The notes under the pieces: model-generated
What the model saw: the letters and a program-made list of their open reading frames with translations, nothing else
Database searches by the model: none
Told to the model about the DNA's origin: nothing
Program-made: the position numbers and the translations under genes
Origin: Pseudobdellovibrionaceae bacterium
Lineage (GTDB): Bacteria; Bdellovibrionota; Bdellovibrionia; Bdellovibrionales; Bdellovibrionaceae
DNA: 64,000 bases
Direction: 5' to 3'
Assembly: GCA_016785955.1 (NCBI GenBank)
Contig: JAEUWH010000113.1
Coordinates: 62,001 to 126,000 of the forward strand
Part shown: positions 20,141 to 35,032 of the stretch, piece by piece
How the letters are laid out: the number at the start of each line of letters is the position of its first letter
Numbering within the stretch: the first letter of the stretch is position 1

Positions 20141-21913
20141 CTATTTTTTAAGGTCTAGCTCTTGCCAACGCGAATATAGAATGTTTATTTTTTCACTCAT
20201 ACTTTGTATCTCGACGAAAATCTCGTACGTGCGCTTGGAATCCGCCATCACGACCTCACTTTGAGATTCCTTCTGCAACGACTCTAACTGCGCCTCTAAC
20301 TTTTGGATCTCGGTTTCGATGCCTTCCCATTCACGCACTTCTTTAAAACTTAGCCCCTTTTTCGTATTTTGTTTCTTCATATTTTTGGCCGCTATTTTCT
20401 CTTGTTCTTGCAAAATATCGGCACGGAAAAAATACTCTTCCCATTGAAAATAATCGCTAAACAACTCGATGGGATGGGGCGGGTTTACGTACATGATTTG
20501 ATTACAGGTCGTATCCATAAAGTAACGATCATGGCTGACCAAAATAATTCCACCCGGAAAATCAGCCAAGGCCTTTTGCAGCGACGTCAACGATTCAAAA
20601 TCCAAGTCATTCGTCGGTTCATCTAAAAGCAACAATTGGCTTTCTTCCAACATCAGCTGGGCAATCCGAATTCGACTTTTCTCGCCGCCCGACAGTTTGG
20701 CCACGGGCAATTCCATCTGATCATAATTAAAACCAAATCGTTCAAGATACGTTTTTGCATACACATGCTCGCCTTGATATTTGACGTAGTCTCCTTGCGG
20801 ACAAATATTTTTTAAAACTGATTCTGATAGATTAAGAGTTTGCTTGGTCTGTTCGAAATAAGAAACCTTAACTCCATCTGTTAACTGCACCGTGCCTTTG
20901 TCCGGCGCCAACTCGTTCAAAATCAATTTCAGTAAAGTACTTTTCCCCGATCCGTTACGCCCTAATATTCCCAAACGAGTCGTACCCATAACCAGCATAT
21001 TAAAATTCTCGAAAATGCGGCGGTCCCCATACGAGAAATCCAGATCTTTGATTTCTAAAAGCTTCTTAGGTGTACGTTTCTCGCCAAAATCAAATTCGAA
21101 AGATTTCGAACGCACTTTCATTTTCAAGTCTTCAAATTCACCCTTGATAACGGCATGGTTTTGAATACGAAATTTTTGTTTCGTTTGCCGAGCAATCGCC
21201 CCTCGTCGCAACCATTCCGTTTCGCGCGTCAACGTATTTTTCATCTTTTCAATGGTCGATCGTTGCTGCGTAATCAACTGTTCTTTTTTTTCTAAATGAA
21301 CGGCCAAATCCCCTTCTGTCACGAGCAAAAATTTGGGGTTTTTTTTATCCAAATCAAAAATCTTGGTGCAGGTGCGTTCTAAAAATAGGCGATCATGCGT
21401 GATCAACACATAACTCAGCTGGGAGTCTTTCAGAAAGTCCTCGATCCAAATAATCGAATCTACGTCCAAATGATTGGTCGGCTCGTCCAGGAAAAGTACA
21501 TCTGGCTTTTTTAACATTTCGGCGGCAATTCCAATTCGCTTCTGTAAACCTCCCGAACACTCGGAAAATTTAAGGTCTTCGTTCAAGTTAGTTAGTTCCA
21601 ACTTCGAAAGCGTCTGCAAAAGTTCAGCGTAATCAGGCTCTATTTCAATCAGATGATGAAACCATGATTTCGAATCATCCATTTCCACCGTTTGTTGTAA
21701 AAAGCCCACCTTCAAGCCCTTGCGATGGACAACGTCTCCCGAATCCGGTTTAATCATTTGCGATAAAATTTTAAACAAGGTCGATTTGCCCGCACCGTTG
21801 GGACCAATAAGACCCACTTTATCATTTTCAAATATCCCGCAACTTAAATCAGAAAATAACGTGCGACCACCATAGGAGTGGGTTAAGCGATTGGCTGAAA
21901 TTAATAAACTCAC
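20141..21913 (-). CDS. uup: ABC-F ATPase, Uup type
   Basis: 590 residues with two ABC ATPase cassettes and no membrane domain. Walker A motifs GPNGAGKST and GRNGSGKST; signatures CSGGLQKR (altered from LSGG) and LSGGEKSR; Walker B FLDEPTNHLD and LLDEPTNDLD. The C-terminal coiled coil after KKGLSFKEVREWEGIE matches the Uup DNA-binding tail. ABC-F proteins act on ribosomes; Uup also affects precise excision and branched DNA. Its ATG overlaps the uvrC stop by four bases, which fits a repair-linked role. Confidence 0.88.
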   Translation of the reverse strand: MSLLISANRLTHSYGGRTLFSDLSCGIFENDKVGLIGPNGAGKSTLFKILSQMIKPDSGDVVHRKGLKVGFLQQTVEMDDSKSWFHHLIEIEPDYAELLQTLSKLELTNLNEDLKFSECSGGLQKRIGIAAEMLKKPDVLFLDEPTNHLDVDSIIWIEDFLKDSQLSYVLITHDRLFLERTCTKIFDLDKKNPKFLLVTEGDLAVHLEKKEQLITQQRSTIEKMKNTLTRETEWLRRGAIARQTKQKFRIQNHAVIKGEFEDLKMKVRSKSFEFDFGEKRTPKKLLEIKDLDFSYGDRRIFENFNMLVMGTTRLGILGRNGSGKSTLLKLILNELAPDKGTVQLTDGVKVSYFEQTKQTLNLSESVLKNICPQGDYVKYQGEHVYAKTYLERFGFNYDQMELPVAKLSGGEKSRIRIAQLMLEESQLLLLDEPTNDLDFESLTSLQKALADFPGGIILVSHDRYFMDTTCNQIMYVNPPHPIELFSDYFQWEEYFFRADILQEQEKIAAKNMKKQNTKKGLSFKEVREWEGIETEIQKLEAQLESLQKESQSEVVMADSKRTYEIFVEIQSMSEKINILYSRWQELDLKK

Positions 21914-23802
21914 TCTGTAGTCTCCTGACTTTCATCCTCGTTCAGTTGCAATAAAATACGTTCGGCGAGGAGGCGATTAAAACCTTTAATACTGGCAATT
22001 TCTTCTGGGCTAGACATCTTAATAGCATCTATCGATTCATAACGTGTGAGTAAAGCTTTTTTACGTTTTTCACCCAAACCAACAATGTAATCCAGCTCAC
22101 TCGTTAATGTTCGCTCGTCACGCAATTTACGATGGTACGTAATCGCAAACCGATGGGCCTCATCCCGAATATTCACCAAGATATTCAATCCATCCGCCTG
22201 CGCCCGAAAAAACACAGGATTCTGTCGTCCCGGTAAAAATACTCGTTCTTCCGAGGCCTCCACATCAGGCGACTGAAAGTCTCTCTTGACTCGGGCTTTG
22301 GCCAGCCCCACCACGGGAATATGATTTTTTCTTAATTCATTTAAAATCTTTACAGCCTGGTTCAATTGGCCTTTACCACCGTCCACCACAATCAGCTGAG
22401 GTTCATCCCATTCCGAGTGCTGAAACCGCCGTGCCAGCACTTCATACATCGAAGCAAAATCGTTTTGTCCGTCCACTGTCTTAATCCTATAGCGACGATA
22501 ATGATCTTTAGCGGGCAGGCCGTCCTCAAATACCACTTGCGATGCCACAACCTCGGTCCCTTGGAAATTTGAAATATCATAACATTCTATGCGATGAGGA
22601 CGTGTCAGTAATTCCAACTTATTTTTTATCTCGTCCAAACCGACAAACTTTTCTTCATTTTCCACCAGTCGCTTTTCAAAATGGGAAATAGCATTCTGCT
22701 TGCACATTTCCAAAAGCTTGCGACCCTTTTCATCCGTCGGAAAACGAACTGAAATCTTTCGACCCGCTCGAAATTCGAGTACATTTTCGAGTAATTTATT
22801 GATATCACCCCCAAAATCACTGCCGATCAAAACATCCTCGGGGATGATGTTTTCTTCATAGTACTGATTGATGTACGAGACAAACCATTCCCGTTCATCT
22901 TCCATGGTGTCGGCAGGGTTGACCTCTAAAAACTGCGACCTGTTGCCAATAATACGTCCACTACGAAAATGCAGTGTTTCTATTACACACCCACGCTCAT
23001 CACCATAATATGTAAATACATCTTGGTCTTTTTCGTTGGCTTCGTTAATGACTGCCTGTTTTTCCAAAATCACTTTGATGGAGTCTATGGAATCACGAAT
23101 TTTCGCGGCCATCTCAAATTTTTCTTCCTCGGCCAGTTGATGCATCCGTTCCGTCATGTGTTTAATGACTTTTTTGTTCTGGCCCCGTAAAAAATGAAGC
23201 GCGCCTTCCACGTCCAGCGCATACGTCTTTTGATCCACGTACCCCACGCACGGTGCTGTACAGCGGCCAATCTGATAAGTCAGGCAGGGACGCTTGCGTG
23301 TAGAAAACACACCATCCGAACAATCCCGAATCTTGAAGGTACGATTTAAAAACTTAATTGTACCAAAAACCGCAGCTCCACTGGTATAGGGTCCGAAATA
23401 AACATGTCTATCTTCCCGTTTCACTTTACGACTTAAATACAAGCGCGGGAACTGGTCCCCTAACGTCAACTTGATATAGGGATACGATTTATCATCACGT
23501 AAACGGATGTTGTATTTTGGTTTATTTTTTTTTATGAGCGACGCTTCCAGCAAAAATGCTTCCACCTCGGTCTTTGTTAGAATGTACTCGACGGAATGAA
23601 TGTTTTGAATCAACGCGCGGGTTTTGCTGTTATGATCCAGATTTTGAAAATAACTGCGCACCCGATTTTTTAAATTTTTCGCTTTGCCCACATAAATAAT
23701 TTTTTGGACGTCATTTTTCATCAAATACACGCCACTCTGGATCGGAAAATCCTTCACCAGATCTTTGAGTTCATCAAAACGGACTCCGCGGCGCTCGCTC
23801 AC
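21910..23802 (-). CDS. uvrC: Excinuclease ABC subunit C
   Basis: 630 residues, full length. The N-terminal GIY-YIG nuclease (GVYLMKN...[14 protein letters not shown]) makes the 3' cut. Then come a Cys-rich stretch, a UvrB-binding UVR motif ([15 protein letters not shown]), the RNase H-like nuclease for the 5' cut ([14 protein letters not shown]) and a helix-hairpin-helix C-terminus ([13 protein letters not shown]). Overlaps uvrB and uup by four bases each. Confidence 0.97.
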
Positions 23803-25847
23803 TCGGCGTTATCCCCAGTCACATCGCGCGCGTTCATTTCCATAATTTCTAACCGACGAATTTCATCGCGAATCTTTGCCGCGTCTTCGAACTCTAAATT
23901 CTTGGCCATTTTTCGCATTTTTTCGCGTAAAAGCCCAATTTCTTTTTGTAGGTTTTCAGTCTTGATCGGTTGCCCTTGCGCCGATTTCTGTTTGTACTCG
24001 TCTTTAAGCTGTTTCAAATTCAGCGAGCCATCAAACATTTCACCGATCCCTTCACTGATTTTTTTATGAATGGACGCCGGGGTGATTCCATTCGCCAGGT
24101 TGTGCTGCATCTGAATACGACGACGGCGTTCCGTTTCAGACATCGCCTTTTTCATCGACTCGGTGATATTGTCTGCATACAAGATAACTCGTCCGTTAAT
24201 ATTGCGCGCGGCCCGCCCAATGGTTTGGATCAACGAACGCTCGGAACGCAAGAAGCCTTCCTTATCGGCATCTGTGATAGCCACCAGACTGACTTCTGGA
24301 ATATCTAAACCTTCCCGCAATAAGTTAATACCAATCAAAACATCAAACACACCTAATCGCAAATCACGAATAATTTCCGTGCGCTCCAGCGTGTGAATTT
24401 CACTGTGCAGATATTTCACTTTCACGTTCATGGATTCAAAATACTCGGTCAGATCTTCCGCCGAGCGCTTGGTCAACGTCGTGATCAAAACTCGTTCCTT
24501 CTTAGGGACACGCTCGCGAATTTCTTTGAGTATATCATCAACCTGGAACTTAACCGGTCGGACCTCCACCAGGGGATCAATAAGTCCTGTCGGGCGAATG
24601 ATTTGCTCGACAATAATGCCTTCACTTTTTTCAAGTTCATAGCTTGCCGGCGTCGCCGAAACATAGACAACCTTATCCATGTTTTTCTCAAACTCTTGAA
24701 AATTCAAGGGTCGATTGTCCAGTGCCGACGGCAAACGAAAACCATGCTCCACCAACGTCATCTTGCGGGCACGATCGCCTCGATACATAGCCCCCAGTTG
24801 CGGCACAGTGATGTGCGACTCATCAATGAACGTGATGAAATCTTTCGGAAAATATTCAATCAACGTCGGCGGCGCCTCCCCCGGCCCTCGTCCCGTTAAG
24901 TGGCGCGAATAATTTTCGATCCCTTGGCAAAACCCCATGTGTTCCATCATTTCAATATCATAATACGTGCGCTGTTCCAGGCGCTGTGCCTCCAAAAATT
25001 TACCTTGAGTTTTAAGCTCCGGCAAACGATGCAAAAGTTCTTCTTGAATAGATTTAATGGCCCGTTTTTGATTTTCTTCCGACGTGGCATAGTGACTGCC
25101 GGGGTAAATTCCAATTTGATCCATTTCACCCACGATTTCGCCTGTCAACGGATCAAACCAAGAAAGTCGTTCGATATAGTCTCCAAAAAATTCAACACGA
25201 ATAGCCTTGCTGTCCTCGTAGGCCGGAAACAGCTCGACGATGTCTCCGCGCACACGAACCGTACCCCGGTGAAAATCAACATTGTTGCGTTCATACTGAA
25301 TGCGAATCAATTCCCTAATAAAATGATCGCGTTTCATCTCGGTATCACGCACGACGTGAACCATCATGTCTTCATAGGCTTCCGGGCTGCCCAAACCATA
25401 AATGCAAGAGACACTGCTGACAATGATCACATCCCGTCGATCAAACAGTGATCGCGTCGCAGAATGGCGCATGCGATCGATCTGATCATTGATCGCCGAG
25501 TCCTTCTCGATGTATGTATCCGTTGAAGGAATATAGGCTTCGGGTTGATAGTAATCATAAAAGCTCACAAAATATTCCACCGCATTTTTAGGAAATATTT
25601 CTTTAAATTCCGAATACAACTGGGCGGCCAAGGTTTTATTAGGAGCCAATATCAACGCCGGCACATTCATTCTTTCGATGACATGAGCCATGGAAAATGT
25701 TTTTCCACTGCCCGTGACACCCAACAAAGTCTGATGCTTTATACCCTTGCCAAAATGATCGACAATTTGTTCGATGGCTTTAGGTTGATCACCCGAAGGT
25801 TTGTAGTCTGAAATCAATTTAAAATTATTAATGTGCTTTTTTCCCAC
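23799..25847 (-). CDS. uvrB: Excinuclease ABC subunit B
   Basis: 682 residues. Damage-verifying helicase of nucleotide excision repair. Walker [10 protein letters not shown], beta-hairpin region [11 protein letters not shown], helicase motifs DESH and QTIGRAARN, and a C-terminal UVR domain ([17 protein letters not shown]) that binds UvrC. The start is a GTG at 25847 placed directly after a TAA of an upstream short frame; no good Shine-Dalgarno is seen. First gene of uvrB-uvrC-uup. uvrA is not in the window. Confidence 0.97.
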
Positions 25848-25984: not shown

Positions 25985-26302
25985 CTAAGACTTTTTACTT
26001 CCACCCAAACATTCTGGACTGCGAAAGTCGATCCGACTTTTTTCCTGCTCCCACTCGGAAAGAGTATACGCTCTAATTGATAAAGCATGAAGCCCTTTTT
26101 TAAACTCGTCGTTCAACAAAGAATACACCCGTTGATGACGCATCACTTTTGATAGGGCATCAAAGTCACGAGAAACCACGATCACTTTAAAATGACTTTC
26201 CGCCCCTTCTGGCACACTATGATTTGCAGATTCATCTTCAATATATAAATAGACCGGAGACAGCGATTCACTCAGCTTATCGTTTAATCTTTGACTTCGC
26301 AT
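25985..26302 (-). CDS. bolA: BolA family protein
   Basis: About 105 residues from ATG 26302 (a TTG at 26314 in frame is less likely). The core SHFKVIVVSRDFD...RHQRVYSLLNDEFKKGLHALSIRAYTLSEWE, shown here in parts, is the BolA class II KH-like fold, with the conserved His in RHQ and 'gLHALsi'. BolA proteins bind [2Fe-2S] clusters with monothiol glutaredoxins and influence cell morphology genes. The start overlaps the end of the upstream gene by 26 bases, making the third gene of a parA-unknown-bolA set. Confidence 0.88.
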   Translation of the reverse strand: MRSQRLNDKLSESLSPVYLYIEDESANHSVPEGAESHFKVIVVSRDFDALSKVMRHQRVYSLLNDEFKKGLHALSIRAYTLSEWEQEKSRIDFRSPECLGGSKKS

Positions 26303-26909
26303 ATTCCAGACCAATTTTTGCCAAAGCCACCGGAGTGGAATTCAGAACATTCTTTTCAATACTTTTTGCTTTCGTCAAAGTCTTGGCCGCCAATAGCTGA
26401 GCTAAAGGATGTCCCACCGGCAAAGACTCAAATGTACCGTCATTCACCCAATCACCCGCAACACGCTCTACCAAATCAAACGCCTTTGGCGCTTTCTCTT
26501 TGATCAGAAAACTACCGGGAAACCTGAGTTCAAATTTAGACGGCTCAGAAAATGACTGAAACGATTCCGGAGATGGCTCTTTATCGTCGCCTTCAAAGGA
26601 GGCCCGTCTGGAAGCGTTCGTTTCAGAAAAGTCCATCTCATCTTGCTTACTCTCACCACTCCCCTCGGCCATATCAGCACCGATTTGCCCTGATGTTTTT
26701 TCGAGTGTTTCCCGATGAGATCCCAGATTATGACTGGGACGACGTTTTTCTTTCTGTGGCAAAATATCGGTTGCGGAAATAGGTTCAACTTCAAGCTCAG
26801 GCGCAACGTCCAGTTCCTCTGATGGCTTTGCTTTTACATTGATGTCGTGTGATTTCTTGCCATTTTTTTTCTTTTTCTTATCTTTATCGAAATCCTTTAT
26901 AGATGGCAT
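26277..26909 (-). CDS. Unknown protein between ParA-like and BolA genes
   Basis: 210 residues; ATG preceded by AAGGAGAACCT inside the end of the parA-like gene (13-base overlap). The first ~125 residues are low-complexity: a basic DKDKKKKKNGKK start, then an acidic, Ser-rich disordered linker. Residues ~125-210 look folded and helical (FELRFPGSFLIKEK...GHPLAQLLAAKTLTKA). It is not ParB: no HTH or CTPase motifs. By position it may be the partner or cargo of the ParA-like ATPase, whose activators often have a basic N-terminus; that is inference. Confidence 0.75.
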   Translation of the reverse strand: MPSIKDFDKDKKKKKNGKKSHDINVKAKPSEELDVAPELEVEPISATDILPQKEKRRPSHNLGSHRETLEKTSGQIGADMAEGSGESKQDEMDFSETNASRRASFEGDDKEPSPESFQSFSEPSKFELRFPGSFLIKEKAPKAFDLVERVAGDWVNDGTFESLPVGHPLAQLLAAKTLTKAKSIEKNVLNSTPVALAKIGLEYAKSKIKR

Positions 26910-27871
26910 AGGTTCTCCTTTTGAAACTCGAGCAGCTCTAGTGTTACCAAGTGGTAGTCTTCCTTCGCTGAAGATTTAGTCGAATAAATCGACTTAGAGG
27001 TAGCCAAAGTATTTTTCGCATCTGAAGAAACGCGAATGTAACTTTTAAGTAAAATATTGGGATATTTTTGAATAAAAAGCTCAAGGTATTCACCGCTCAT
27101 TTTTTCACGTGCATCATACTTTGTAAAAAGCACTTTAATATCCGCATGAATTTTAAAATCCTTCTGAATATCCTGCAATTCTTGATAATTTTTTTCAAAA
27201 CCCAAAATCGAAAATTTATCAGGATTAACCGGCAACACCACTAAATCACTCGCAACGGTCACCGCCGTATTCGTTGCCGATAAAGCCGGAGCCGTATCGA
27301 TAATAATTAAATCATAATTTAAACCGACTTGGGCCAATTGGCTTTTAATGGATTGAGACCAATTCCGATTTGAATTAATCAGGGCTCGTTCCAAAACTGA
27401 ATTGTTCAAACTCGAAGGAATCAGATCAATGTGCGAATTGATGGTTTTAATCGCCGCTTCAATCGAAACTTTTTTTTCGAAAATATCCAACCAGACCGCA
27501 GCATTCTCGTCCGAATGCCCTAAAGCAAATGTCAAGTTAGCCTGCTGATCCAAGTCCACGAACAAAACTTTCGCTCCCAACATCGAAGCACGCAATCCTA
27601 AATTCAACGCCGACGTCGTTTTGGCGACCCCGCCCTTCAGCATTTGAAATGAGACGACTTTTTTAGGATATTTATATCCACGTTGATTTAAATATTCACG
27701 CACAAGTTCGGCCGGAATATAACTGAGCTGATGACTGGTTCCAAAATTCTTGGCGAAATCCGCTTTCAGCTGTGGCAGAGTAAGTCCTACGACATCGGCC
27801 AGATCAATGGCCGACAAACACACAGCCGACTTGGCCGTTAAACTGGATGCCTCTTCAATCATTCGAATCAT
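26897..27871 (-). CDS. ParA/MinD-like ATPase with N-terminal extension
   Basis: Start chosen at ATG 27871 behind GGGGGTGG; a TTG at 27892 is in frame. About 90 N-terminal residues resemble the HTH-like region of plasmid ParA proteins. Then comes the deviant Walker A KGGVAKTTSA (the usual Gly before Lys is Ala), switch I FVDLDQQANLT and Walker B LIIIDTAPALS. These ATPases form dimers on DNA or membrane to position cargo. No parB or parS site is near, so this is probably an orphan positioning system rather than chromosome segregation. Downstream genes overlap it, ending in bolA. Confidence 0.88.
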   Translation of the reverse strand: MIRMIEEASSLTAKSAVCLSAIDLADVVGLTLPQLKADFAKNFGTSHQLSYIPAELVREYLNQRGYKYPKKVVSFQMLKGGVAKTTSALNLGLRASMLGAKVLFVDLDQQANLTFALGHSDENAAVWLDIFEKKVSIEAAIKTINSHIDLIPSSLNNSVLERALINSNRNWSQSIKSQLAQVGLNYDLIIIDTAPALSATNTAVTVASDLVVLPVNPDKFSILGFEKNYQELQDIQKDFKIHADIKVLFTKYDAREKMSGEYLELFIQKYPNILLKSYIRVSSDAKNTLATSKSIYSTKSSAKEDYHLVTLELLEFQKENLCHL

Positions 27872-27925
27872 CGCCACCCCCTTACTCTTCAATGACGCTA
27901 TTACATTGATAGTCGTTGGTAAAGG

Positions 27926-29568: not shown

Positions 29569-31563
29569 TTATAACTTTTTCGAGTCTAACGATTTTAAAA
29601 AATCAGCCACCAGTTGCGTTCGTTTTTCTCCGCTCACTGGACGAACCCCACGCGGATACGTCTTAAACAATTCTTGATTCGCATCCAACAAAAATCGAGA
29701 CATGGCTACCCGTCGAAACGCCCCATTTTTCTTTCGTTCCAAGCATTTGGTCATCAAAAGATACTCTTGTGCCCGCGTAATCCCCACATAAAACAATCTA
29801 CGTTCTTCATCCACATCCTGCCCCAAATTTTTATGCGGCAACAAATCCTCTTCGATACCACACAAAATAACCACCGGAAACTCAAGCCCCTTGGACGCAT
29901 GCAGGGTCATCAGCTGAACTTTATTTTCTTCCTCATCCCCCGACAACATTTCATCACGCAACATCAACCGATCCAGGAATTCCTTTAACACGAACAAATT
30001 CTGACCGTTTTTATTTAAAGATGAAAATAAAATTCGGGCAAATATCTCGACCAAACCCCATTTACGTTCTCCGACCGAGGCATCATCCGATAAGCTGTAG
30101 ACATACTCACGATAACCAATATCCCGAAATGCTTCTAAGAATGAGGTCTCCGTCGCCCCCGGCTCAACCATTTTTTTGGGCAGTTCTGACAGAAAATAAA
30201 ACAACCCATCCAAACCTTCACCCGCCTTAGGAATGATCCCTTGCTCGCGCCAACGCTGACATGACTCGTGAAAACTGATGCCGTTCAATTTAGCAAAGTC
30301 ATTCAATTTTTCAATCGTCGTTTCCCCAATCCCGCGCGGGGGCACGTTGATGATTCGCTTCAAGGTGACATCTTTAGCCTGAATCGCCTGGCGAATAAAA
30401 GCCACCAGATCCTTTACTTCTTTTCGCTCGAACAGTGACGATCCACCCGTGATCGAGTAATCAATACGGTTTTTCTTCAACGCACTTTCCAACCAGGCGC
30501 CCTGAGAATTAGATCGATACAGAATAGCAATATCTTTCGGTGCGTACCCTTCTTTTATGAAATTTAAAATTTCGGCGGCGACAAATTCACTCTCGGCTTC
30601 TTCGTTTTCCAGAATGAAAAGCTCTGGAATATGGTCTTTGATTTTTTTACTCTCTGATTTTAAAACTTTTCCATGTCGTGATTTATTTTTACTGATCACA
30701 TCATTCGCAAAATTCAGGATCGAGGAAATTGAACGATAGTTACGCTCTAGTTTAATCACTTCGCAGCTTTTAAAATCTTTCGGAAAGTTCAAAATATTTT
30801 GAACCTCGGCCCCACGCCAACCGTAAATCGATTGATCATCGTCACCCACCACCGCGATATTGCTATGTCCCCCGATTAAATGACGAATAAGTTTCATTTG
30901 TGTCATATTGGTATCTTGAAACTCGTCCACCATGATCTGCTTATACTGCGCTTGCACCTCGGCTTTGATATGCGGAAATTTATTAAATAACTCCAGCGGT
31001 TTCAGCAAAAGACTTTCAAAATCCACCACACTCAGCAAATTTAATCTTTTTTCATATTTAGGCGCCAAAATCTCGGCCATCTGATGATACTCATCATCAA
31101 TTGTAGAATTATTTTTTTTATTACGAATGTTTTGAATCAAGTTATAAAGATGCTCCAGATCGTACTTGTCCCGACCAACGACCTTGGTTTCCTTCAGCAT
31201 CTCTTTAAGAATGGCGAATGAATCCGACGTGTCGATGATGCCAAAATTTTGGTCCAGCTCTAATTCTTTGTGATATTTTTTGATTAACTGAAGACCAAAC
31301 GAGTGAAACGTCCCGGCCGATATCTTTTTTGCGGCCTTGCCGACCTTGACCGTCACCCGATGCTTTAACTCACGCGCCGCTTTATTGGTAAACGTCAACA
31401 CCAAGATTTCCTCGGCTTTAGAAATCCCTTCTGCAATCAAGCGACCCGTGCGCGAAACTAAGACTGTTGTTTTTCCGGAACCAGCACCCGCCAAAATTAA
31501 AAGAGGCCCATAATTATGGGCCACGGCTCGTTGCTGCTCGGGATTTAATCCAGAGTACCACAT
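29569..31563 (-). CDS. UvrD/Rep/PcrA-family DNA helicase lacking the C-terminal Tudor domain
   Basis: 664 residues, superfamily 1A 3'-5' helicase. N-terminal LNPEQQRAV Q-motif, Walker A LAGAGSGKTT (K31), Walker B VDEFQDTN, QSIYGWRGA, LERNYRS, and the late motifs LMTLHASKGLEFP and FYVGITRAQEYL are all present. The protein ends about 50 residues after the last motif, without the Tudor-like C-terminal domain typical of UvrD and PcrA; such a domain sits in the gene six bases upstream. Rep is likewise short, so Rep-type is an alternative name. Confidence 0.92.
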   Translation of the reverse strand: MWYSGLNPEQQRAVAHNYGPLLILAGAGSGKTTVLVSRTGRLIAEGISKAEEILVLTFTNKAARELKHRVTVKVGKAAKKISAGTFHSFGLQLIKKYHKELELDQNFGIIDTSDSFAILKEMLKETKVVGRDKYDLEHLYNLIQNIRNKKNNSTIDDEYHQMAEILAPKYEKRLNLLSVVDFESLLLKPLELFNKFPHIKAEVQAQYKQIMVDEFQDTNMTQMKLIRHLIGGHSNIAVVGDDDQSIYGWRGAEVQNILNFPKDFKSCEVIKLERNYRSISSILNFANDVISKNKSRHGKVLKSESKKIKDHIPELFILENEEAESEFVAAEILNFIKEGYAPKDIAILYRSNSQGAWLESALKKNRIDYSITGGSSLFERKEVKDLVAFIRQAIQAKDVTLKRIINVPPRGIGETTIEKLNDFAKLNGISFHESCQRWREQGIIPKAGEGLDGLFYFLSELPKKMVEPGATETSFLEAFRDIGYREYVYSLSDDASVGERKWGLVEIFARILFSSLNKNGQNLFVLKEFLDRLMLRDEMLSGDEEENKVQLMTLHASKGLEFPVVILCGIEEDLLPHKNLGQDVDEERRLFYVGITRAQEYLLMTKCLERKKNGAFRRVAMSRFLLDANQELFKTYPRGVRPVSGEKRTQLVADFLKSLDSKKL

Positions 31564-31569
31564 GTAAAA

Positions 31570-32001
31570 TTATGGGCGATTATGAATCAGAAGTTTAACT
31601 TCATCCGAAAATACAACTTCAATTTTATCTGGTTGCACAGAACGAACAACACCGACTCCGAATTTTGGGTGATTGATCTTATTCGCAATTTCAAACTTAG
31701 CTTTTAAACTATATGGTTTTTCTTCCATCGATGACAAAGAACTTAACAACTCTTGATATTCCGACTGATGATTAGATTTTCTTTGATTCGCACTGGGCGA
31801 GCGCGGAGTACGGGCCGTCGTTGCTTTTTTAGCTTTAGGTAAAGTGAATGTACTTTTTGAATGACACACTTCACACTCAACTTTTGCCGACGTGGCTGTT
31901 TTATGCGCCAACACCTTGTGATAGCGATCGACATCACATTTTTTACAAAATGTGTGAAATGATTTCGCCACCGGTGGCAGTTCTGTTATTGCGTCAGCCA
32001 T
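31570..32001 (-). CDS. Zinc-ribbon protein with UvrD/PcrA-like Tudor C-terminus
   Basis: 143 residues. N-terminal zinc ribbon with C19-x2-C22 and C43-x2-C46; a basic Ser/Pro/Lys linker (about 55-80); and a C-terminal KINHPKFGVGVVRSVQPD...VVFSDEVKLL segment like the Tudor-like tail of PcrA/UvrD ('V.H.kFG.G.V..v.gd.i.V.F..g.k.L'). In UvrD/PcrA this tail contacts RNA polymerase. The gene stands six bases before the helicase that lacks this tail, so it may supply the domain in trans. The domain match is by eye; the shared role is inference. Confidence 0.7.
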   Translation of the reverse strand: MADAITELPPVAKSFHTFCKKCDVDRYHKVLAHKTATSAKVECEVCHSKSTFTLPKAKKATTARTPRSPSANQRKSNHQSEYQELLSSLSSMEEKPYSLKAKFEIANKINHPKFGVGVVRSVQPDKIEVVFSDEVKLLIHNRP

Positions 32002-32027: not shown

Positions 32028-32903
32028 CTAATATCCCTTAGGTTTATATAGGTCTAAAGGCGCCTTTAGATCGTTCGCAAGAACTTCGGACGCGTTTAGG
32101 TAAAAGGGACCTTCATTATTCTGAATTTTGCTCTGAATTTCAATCATTGATTTTTCATTTTTTGGATCGATCAAAAGCCCCGTTTTTTCATACTGCTCTA
32201 AGAATTCCAGGTCGGCTTCTTTGGTAAAAAACAACTCCCAACTGCTGGCATTCACCTGGGCACGATAGGTCACCGTCTTGGCATGAGAATGCACCGGCGC
32301 ATAAGCACCAATCACTTCCAAATGTCCATAATGCGAGTGCAGCTTTAACGCCGGACTACCCCACTGAGTCATGCCCGAACACTGTTCGACATTGGCATAC
32401 CAAAGGCCAAACGCTTTAGATAAAAACCCAAGTCCATAAAACTGATCGCTCTTATCCAAAAAACTATTCACAGAGCATAAATTATGAGCAACCCATTCCC
32501 CTTTATGCATAGTCGGAATAATAATAAAAAGCGAAAGTGGAACATAGTCGATGTCACCAAAATCTGGAAGTTTAGCTTTCAGAAGCGCAGGTAACTTATC
32601 TTTTTTGTACGCAAATCCGCACACAAACCCTGGCATCACCGCGCAGTCATAAAACACCCAACGCGGCATTGGCATCGCCGAAGGCCCAAAGGCAATATTT
32701 TCAATATGATAAATATATTCCGCAAAAGGAAGTTCAGCCAAGTCCAAAGGATCTTTAAAAATGGGGGCCTTAGAAAACCAATCCAAGCGATGACGCTTGC
32801 CCGGCTGGCTGATCGAGTTTTCATCCCGAACATAAACGTAAGGGCGAATATCGGGATTCTGAAGCCAAGGAACTTTGTGCTGGAAAATTTGATTTACGTC
32901 CAC
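32028..32903 (-). CDS. Conserved-looking protein of unknown function
   Basis: 291 residues, no signal peptide or membrane segment. Rich in aromatic residues and Gly/Pro turns (PMPRWVFYDCAVMPGF, SKAFGLWYANVEQ), suggesting a compact beta-rich enzyme fold; a loose likeness to acetoacetate-decarboxylase-type barrels is too weak to name. It starts ATG 32903 and ends 26 bases before the zinc-ribbon gene, likely in one transcript with the helicase genes. Confidence 0.65.
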   Translation of the reverse strand: MDVNQIFQHKVPWLQNPDIRPYVYVRDENSISQPGKRHRLDWFSKAPIFKDPLDLAELPFAEYIYHIENIAFGPSAMPMPRWVFYDCAVMPGFVCGFAYKKDKLPALLKAKLPDFGDIDYVPLSLFIIIPTMHKGEWVAHNLCSVNSFLDKSDQFYGLGFLSKAFGLWYANVEQCSGMTQWGSPALKLHSHYGHLEVIGAYAPVHSHAKTVTYRAQVNASSWELFFTKEADLEFLEQYEKTGLLIDPKNEKSMIEIQSKIQNNEGPFYLNASEVLANDLKAPLDLYKPKGY

Positions 32904-33607: not shown

Positions 33608-35032
33608 CTAGTTTTTTAACGGGCCCGTCATTTCTTCTGGCTTCACATACTGATCAAACTGCTCAGCCGTCAAAAGACCCGACTTCACCGCTTCCTCTTT
33701 CAAGGTCGTTCCATTTTTATGTGCCGTTTTGGCAATTTTCGCTGCGTTGTCATAACCAATATATGGATTCAACGCCGTCACCAGCATCAATGAATTATCT
33801 AAATGTTTTTTGATTTGAGTCGTATTGGCCTCAATACCGTCTAGGCAGTTCACGCGGAAGCTGTCTAGACTGTCTGATAACAATCGAACACTGTTCAGAA
33901 CATTATGCACGATCACGGGTTTGAATACGTTCAACTCGAAGTGTCCGTTTAACCCACCCACAGTCGTTGCCACATCGTTACCAACAACCTGTGCACACAC
34001 CATAGTCATCGATTCACTTTGAGTGGGGTTTACTTTTCCAGGCATGATAGAACTACCGGGCTCATTTTCCGGTAATAACAATTCGCCAAAACCACTGCGA
34101 GGACCACTGCCTAACAACCGAATATCATTAGCTATCTTCATCAACGAAACGGCCAATGTACGCAGAGCGCCGCTCACTTCGACCAAAGCATCATGGGTGG
34201 CGAGTGCTTCAAATTTATTTTCAGCGGAAACAAATGGAATTCCCGTCTCTTTCGACAGAACTTGGCAGACCGTCACCGAGAAATCTTTGTGCGCATTCAG
34301 CCCAGTACCCACAGCGGTTCCGCCGATGGCCAGCTCATGCAGATGCGGCAACGTATTTTTCACACGAGTAACCCCGTGCTTGATTTGAGTCGCATAACCC
34401 GAAAACTCTTGGCCTAATGTTAATGGTGTTGCGTCCATTAAATGCGTTCGACCAATTTTTACGATATTTAGAAACTCATTTTGCTTTTTCACCATCGACG
34501 CGTGGAATTGCTCCATAGCGGGCAGAAGACGGTTGTGAATTTGATCCGCCACTGCAATATGCATCGCCGTGGGAAACGTATCGTTAGACGACTGCCCCTT
34601 GTTAACATGATCATTAGGATGAACATCTTTTGACGGCAAGGTTAAACCCATCATTTGCATCGCCCGATTGGCCACGACTTCGTTTGTATTCATATTTGTT
34701 TGCGTCCCCGATCCGGTCTGCCAAACAACCAAAGGAAAGTGGTCATCCCATTCACCCTTAATAACTTCGTCACAGGCTTTTACGATCAAATCCGATTTTT
34801 TTTCATCCAACAAACCCAATTTCGTATTCGCCAAGGCCGCTGCTTTTTTTAGCAATCCAAGGGCTTTAATCATTTCTCGAGGAAACCGCTCGCCACCAAT
34901 TTTAAAATTTTCTATAGACCGCTGAGTTTGCGCGCCCCACAAAGCACTGGCCGGAACTTTGACATCCCCCATTGTATCTTTTTCGGTGCGAAATTCTTTG
35001 TCATTTTTTATATCATCTAGTCTTTTTTTCAT
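33608..35032 (-). CDS. fumC: Fumarate hydratase class II
   Basis: 474 residues, TCA-cycle enzyme converting fumarate to malate. The superfamily signature [15 protein letters not shown] is near residue 335, the active-site His in [20 protein letters not shown] and the substrate site in [14 protein letters not shown]. Iron-independent class II by homology. Preceded by GGAGAAATT. A short hexanucleotide repeat lies in its upstream region. Confidence 0.97.

Follow-up and report, generated by a model that had tools for sequence, protein, structure and literature searches.

Two genes in a Pseudobdellovibrionaceae genome raise the question whether a small zinc-ribbon protein is the lost tail of the UvrD-family helicase encoded next to it or has a role of its own. 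They are located in a stretch of 64,000 nucleotides (assembly GCA_016785955.1, contig JAEUWH010000113.1, positions 62,001 to 126,000), in the following called the window. A preliminary description of the locus had proposed that the Tudor-like tail, which PcrA and UvrD carry at their C-terminus, was split off from this helicase and is now part of the small protein, for which we use the name SM. Checking the open reading frames reproduced the coordinates, strands, reading frames and the gap of 6 bases given there, with both genes on the minus strand and SM being the upstream one (Table 1). In the same gene run a ParA-type ATPase gene overlaps a gene for a 210-aa protein of unknown family (26277-27892), and the window also harbors uvrB and uvrC (21910-25847), which overlap by four bases and lie about 6-10 kb from SM, a nearness that by eye was seen only in the genus of the window.

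Table 1: Features of the SM locus and its surroundings (positions refer to the window).
Feature	Position	Strand	Basis or remark
SM, 143-aa zinc-ribbon/Tudor protein	31570..32001	minus	ORF reading, family alignment
SM zinc ribbon, residues 19-46 (C19xxC22, C43xxC46)	31864..31947	minus	Cys invariant in 57/57 rows; Elf1-type ribbon, below cut-off, E 0.0058
SM Tudor, PcrA/UvrD-type, residues 102-143	31573..31698	minus	profile comparison with controls, structural match, PDB hits of family HMM
Rep-like UvrD-family helicase (SF1A) of 664 aa, lacking a Tudor tail	29569..31563	minus	domain models, PDB match, tree
Helicase C-terminal peptide GVRPVSGEKRTQLVADFLKSLD, conserved	29584..29649	minus	place comparable to DnaB-binding C-terminus of E. 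coli Rep
291-aa protein, directly upstream of SM	32028..32903	minus	no Pfam or NCBIfam match; SM neighbor in 16/19 Bdellovibrionales loci
UvrB motif FDPLTGEIV = PcrA/UvrD docking-hairpin motif, first position off consensus	25131..25157	minus	
Fumarase gene	33608-35032	minus	part of run with 291-aa gene, SM, helicase and further genes

SM consists of an N-terminal zinc ribbon, a low-complexity linker of basic character, a helix and a C-terminal Tudor domain. All four cysteines of the ribbon, which the preliminary description had already recognized, are invariant across the 57 aligned rows of the family together with H111, F114, G115, G117, F131 and L138, and among the aligned distant loci, 18 in number, inspection by eye found the H-x-x-F-G core and the two CxxC pairs kept in every one. 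A comparison of the C-terminal segment with real PcrA/UvrD tails using hhalign resulted in a probability of 95.4% (E 1.9e-8, score 45.2), with 100 column shuffles scoring at most 19.3 and the reversed profile 11.4. When the family HMM was searched against the PDB, the top three hits were UvrD C-terminal-domain chains, although with weak E-values of 0.021, 0.16 and 0.19. The AF2 model of SM (mean pLDDT 74) has a pTM of only 0.36, which makes the relative placement of the two halves unreliable, and it shows the C-terminus as a five-strand unit that is most similar in VIA-align to the Tudor domain of M. smegmatis UvrD1 (9dqs, Z 6.2, 1.3 Å over 43), followed by PcrA (5dma, Z 5.6, 1.5 Å over 41). 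A Tudor fold is thus indicated with moderate confidence; as these Z values stay below 8 and eukaryotic Tudors match the other half of SM at about equally high Z, it is the sequence evidence that bears the weight. The Pfam model PF21196 (PcrA_UvrD_tudor) is absent from the matches of the SM from the window up to E 10; at a threshold of E <= 1 two of the 57 members match it, the better one with E 0.0054. Since its cut-off is missed, we call the SM Tudor homologous to, but not a member of, this Pfam family. Taken at the level of sequence profiles, a relationship of the SM C-terminus to the PcrA/UvrD tail domain is supported, and this part of the original proposal holds.

The N-terminal half weakly resembles the zinc ribbons of Elf1 and TFIIS, as 46 of the 57 members match the Elf1/ELOF1-type ribbon PF05129 (Zn_ribbon_Elf1) at E <= 1 (best 3.9e-4) and 13 match a TFIIS-type ribbon at the same threshold. 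SM from the window does not reach the curated Pfam cut-off of Zn_ribbon_Elf1 (17.1 vs 29.8 bits), and the resemblance to Elf1 may be generic to zinc ribbons. Folded separately, this half gave a pLDDT of 77, and Foldseek and VIA returned small Tudor/SH3-like barrels mixed with eukaryotic ribosome chains, none of them prominent. Contig C24 of genome G000 (L034:2113-2724) encodes a further protein, one half of which resembles the SM Tudor. It is 203 aa long with a Lys/Ala-rich N-terminus, has no zinc ribbon and shows HKVLGWG in place of HPKFGVG, and many relatives give partial matches resembling it.

The residues that are conserved in the SM Tudor include those which have been connected to RNA polymerase binding in PcrA. 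There, H681, W684, K712 and L714 were mutated as a candidate RNA-polymerase-binding face and binding was reduced (PMC5397179), and K727 of B. subtilis PcrA has been reported as critical for RNA polymerase binding (PMC8318588). The four residues correspond by register to H111, F114, K136 and L138 of SM, the register of the last two being set by eye and from the HMMER comparison with E. coli UvrD. Three of these positions belong to the invariant ones, the aromatic F replacing W, and position 136 is occupied by K in 26 and by R in 31 of the 57 rows. This pattern of conservation supports a binding face that is intact in SM. The PcrA/UvrD Tudor (PF21196; 5dma, 7egs, 7egt, 9dqs) therefore shares with SM the fold, the sequence profile and the four-residue face, and probably also the RpoB hairpin as target, but it sits on the helicase itself whereas that of SM is found on a separate protein along with a zinc ribbon; the loop before the last strand appears shorter in SM than in PcrA, with the register set by eye.

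PcrA partners carry the motif [VIL]DxxTGE[VIL][VILT] in hairpins of RpoB and UvrB, as described in PMC8318588. RpoB of the source genome contains IDESTGEII, and in a survey of 20 genomes of the phylum, the 20th of which yielded a fragment only, D-x-x-T-G-E is kept in 18 of the 19 full RpoBs and the strict consensus in 13 of those 18. Such conservation would be expected anyway, since PcrA is also present. In addition to a normal rpoB, genome G058 has on contig C55 (L195) another, incomplete open frame that resembles RpoB and carries a docking motif that is degenerate (TGL). UvrB was considered as a general docking partner as well and is disfavored: the motif is present in UvrB from the window, yet TGE is kept in only two of 17 readable UvrBs and degenerate in the other 15, which makes the polymerase the likelier general target and docking on UvrB unlikely outside a few species.

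We then turn to the helicase. Its UvrD-helicase and UvrD_C domains are complete according to Pfam, and E. coli Rep (1uaa) is its best sequence match in the PDB, the alignment reaching residue 657 of the 664. It gave no match to PF21196, unlike the other helicase of the genome, and ends like E. coli Rep, so that the earlier reading of a helicase that stops without a Tudor-like tail was correct. As the NCBIfam scores for rep (TIGR01074, 532 bits, cut-off 951.45) and pcrA (525 bits) are both far below the cut-offs, we call the protein Rep-like only; E. coli rep also differs in having no SM-like neighbor annotated beside it. The second UvrD-family helicase of the same genome (L001) has 753 aa and pcrA as its best model (847 bits, cut-off 911), and by passing the PF21196 cut-off it is seen to possess a tail of its own. 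A quick, unrooted maximum-likelihood tree of 76 helicases placed 45 Bdellovibrionales Rep-like rows, including the helicase of the window, on one side of a branch (100 SH-aLRT) and grouped 21 PcrA rows with E. coli UvrD (99 SH-aLRT), apart from the Rep-like clade. E. coli Rep and eight Rep-like rows of another order fall outside both groups, at an open fork with a long E. coli branch. A record titled Streptomyces griseus (L094) carries the SM/helicase pair and is placed inside the Bdellovibrionales helicase clade, and its title is probably a labelling error.

None of the Rep-like helicase ends that were read carries a Tudor tail, and no fusion of SM and helicase was found among the ends read. 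A match in a 747-aa open frame of genome G049 is probably a PcrA tail. Most of the Bdellovibrionales Rep-like helicases read terminate in a peptide of the conserved form RPVSGxxRxxLVxxFLxxL or similar, and in E. coli Rep the C-terminal 33 residues are reported to mediate DnaB binding (PMC6614839). As Rep-like helicases of genomes lacking an SM row (L142, L143, L147) keep the peptide too, it is not SM-specific and gives no evidence for an SM site.

How closely SM and the helicase belong together was analyzed in 140 Bdellovibrionales genomes, counting Rep-like helicase rows at E <= 1.7e-137 and SM rows at E <= 1.6e-21. The helicase is present in 100 and SM in 108 of them; 93 genomes possess both, seven of the 100 helicase genomes are without SM, 15 of the 108 SM genomes are without a full helicase row (at least two of them, G029 and G113, carry helicase fragments) and 25 have neither. 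SM and the helicase are thus associated in these raw counts, which are uncorrected for relatedness and genome reduction. Of the 93 genomes having both genes, 73 show SM upstream of the helicase on the same strand and within 5 kb, the distance being no more than 250 bp in 60, and the two are unlinked in the other 20. Among the loci of the best 30 relatives, the window's own included, the helicase adjoins SM in 29 and is missing at L015. A scan of named contig records, using patterns from Bdellovibrionales only, gave 59 SM loci, nearly all titled Bdellovibrionales, with a helicase match downstream in 45; several of the other 14 end shortly past SM. In some genomes TauE-type and/or Exo_endo_phos-type genes are inserted between the two. 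The gene for the 291-aa protein is a more constant neighbor of SM than the helicase among the Bdellovibrionales loci tabulated, so that the adjacency of SM and helicase may be plain synteny.

SM is widespread across the phylum outside Bdellovibrionales, where a different neighbor is found. In two other orders, 63 genomes gave rows for SM and uvrC alike; the genes are arranged head-to-head in 61 of these, 59 times at a distance of at most 229 bp, and lie on different contigs in the remaining two. From the loci fetched outside Bdellovibrionales, 17 of 18 show SM facing uvrC, whose identity was confirmed by the family model in the window and at one locus. Both uvrC-linked orders also have, near SM, uvrC together with a gene for a family-4-like uracil-DNA glycosylase (below the cut-off), and otherwise the neighbors mostly differ between them. 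In Bdellovibrionales SM does not have uvrC as a neighbor, except that by eye the two are about 8-10 kb apart in three genomes of the genus of the window. A search of plasmids, phages and viral contigs gave no match to SM on mobile DNA. The preliminary description had named outcomes that would speak against it, namely a C-terminus of SM that does not fold as a Tudor/SH3 barrel, or an ordinary Rep with relatives that always lack the tail together with a pair that is not conserved. The C-terminus does model as a Tudor. That of the tailless Rep largely applies, the helicase being Rep-like, and that of the pair does not: the two genes are near neighbors in most Bdellovibrionales genomes having both, even if they are unlinked in a part of them and uvrC takes the place beside SM in other orders.

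From the domain homology, the conserved binding face, the conserved polymerase motif, the zinc ribbon and the two repair-type gene neighborhoods we infer that SM may be a free-standing RNA-polymerase-docking adaptor at the interface of transcription and repair, with the Rep-like helicase or the UvrC machinery as client, a reading to which we assign a probability of about 0.55. The Tudor domain would most likely dock on the beta subunit of RNA polymerase, at the D-x-x-T-G-E beta-hairpin to which PcrA/UvrD itself binds, and the zinc-ribbon half would bring or regulate a DNA-repair or conflict-resolution enzyme at the transcribing polymerase. In Bdellovibrionales the gene link suggests the adjacent Rep-like helicase as the probable local client and possible partner, and in the other orders UvrC, and with it nucleotide excision repair. 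Given these two gene neighborhoods, a Rep-like helicase in this genome and uvrC in related orders, SM may tie DNA repair to transcription. As Rep is said to have no interaction with RNA polymerase (PMC5397179), such an adaptor would give a Rep-like enzyme the ability that is built into PcrA. The neighborhoods fit a partner and a syntenic neighbor alike. Only tentatively do we extend the adaptor reading to a phylum-wide transcription-repair coupling factor, in which an Elf1-like ribbon and a UvrD-type Tudor, both modules of polymerase type, would be combined into a protein that docks on RNA polymerase in trans and passes sites of damage or conflict on to its clients, UvrC in two orders and the Rep-like helicase in Bdellovibrionales.

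It could also be that SM competes with or regulates PcrA by occupying the polymerase hairpin and thereby limiting PcrA recruitment, its gene neighbors being incidental. The same binding face is conserved in SM, PcrA-like helicases coexist with it, and UvrB and RNA polymerase of B. subtilis are described as competing for one PcrA site (PMC8318588), but we regard this as unlikely, as it would leave unexplained both the invariant zinc ribbon and the conservation of the neighborhoods with uvrC and the helicase. More doubtful still is a nucleic-acid-binding or regulatory protein that contacts DNA or RNA through its Tudor and its ribbon, with the divergent uvrC reflecting transcriptional control of this gene. 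The conserved head-to-head arrangement and the basic linker would suit such a protein, and PMC7585439 reports non-specific DNA binding by the Tudor domain of E. coli UvrD and cites a picocyanobacterial Tudor protein as one that binds RNA. Against it, a domain-model search with SM gave no match to known DNA-binding regulator families, simple patterns revealed no LexA-like boxes in 17 SM/uvrC intergenic stretches, and SM of Bdellovibrionales is not adjacent to uvrC at all. Rather improbable, finally, is that the helicase lost its Tudor and that the tail acts in trans as its dedicated subunit, for although the short distance of the genes and the homology of SM to the PcrA/UvrD tail would agree with this, an intact, tailed PcrA is retained separately in the same genome, the helicase falls into a Rep-like clade whose ends as far as read are all tailless, and SM occurs throughout the phylum, beside uvrC instead of the helicase in two other orders and in some genomes without the helicase. 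SM is thus probably not the lost tail of its neighbor, and the split-off origin proposed at the outset finds no support here; with the tree being unrooted, an ancient loss of the tail may nevertheless have taken place.

DinX is already known as another repair protein that has a UvrD-like Tudor, and this C-terminal Tudor (DUF3553, PF12073, in M. tuberculosis) has been proposed as a link to RNA polymerase (PMC6511836). Unlike SM, DinX is itself a DNA polymerase, which ends in the Tudor domain; DUF3553 is matched by 24 of the 57 SM members at E <= 1 (best 1.8e-4), and SM from the window is below its Pfam cut-off (14.3 vs 20.3 bits). What seems to be new is the free-standing zinc-ribbon form of the UvrD-type Tudor, spread through one phylum and linked to uvrC and helicase genes, and in the open-access literature, mostly judged from titles, we found no earlier report of an SM-like zinc-ribbon/Tudor protein. 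UvrD-dependent transcription-coupled repair is itself disputed (PMC8318588). In PcrA/UvrD polymerase docking and helicase activity reside on one protein, and a separate docking protein would allow them to be removed independently. The conserved linkage to uvrC gives the so far unannotated SM family a concrete and testable place in excision repair.
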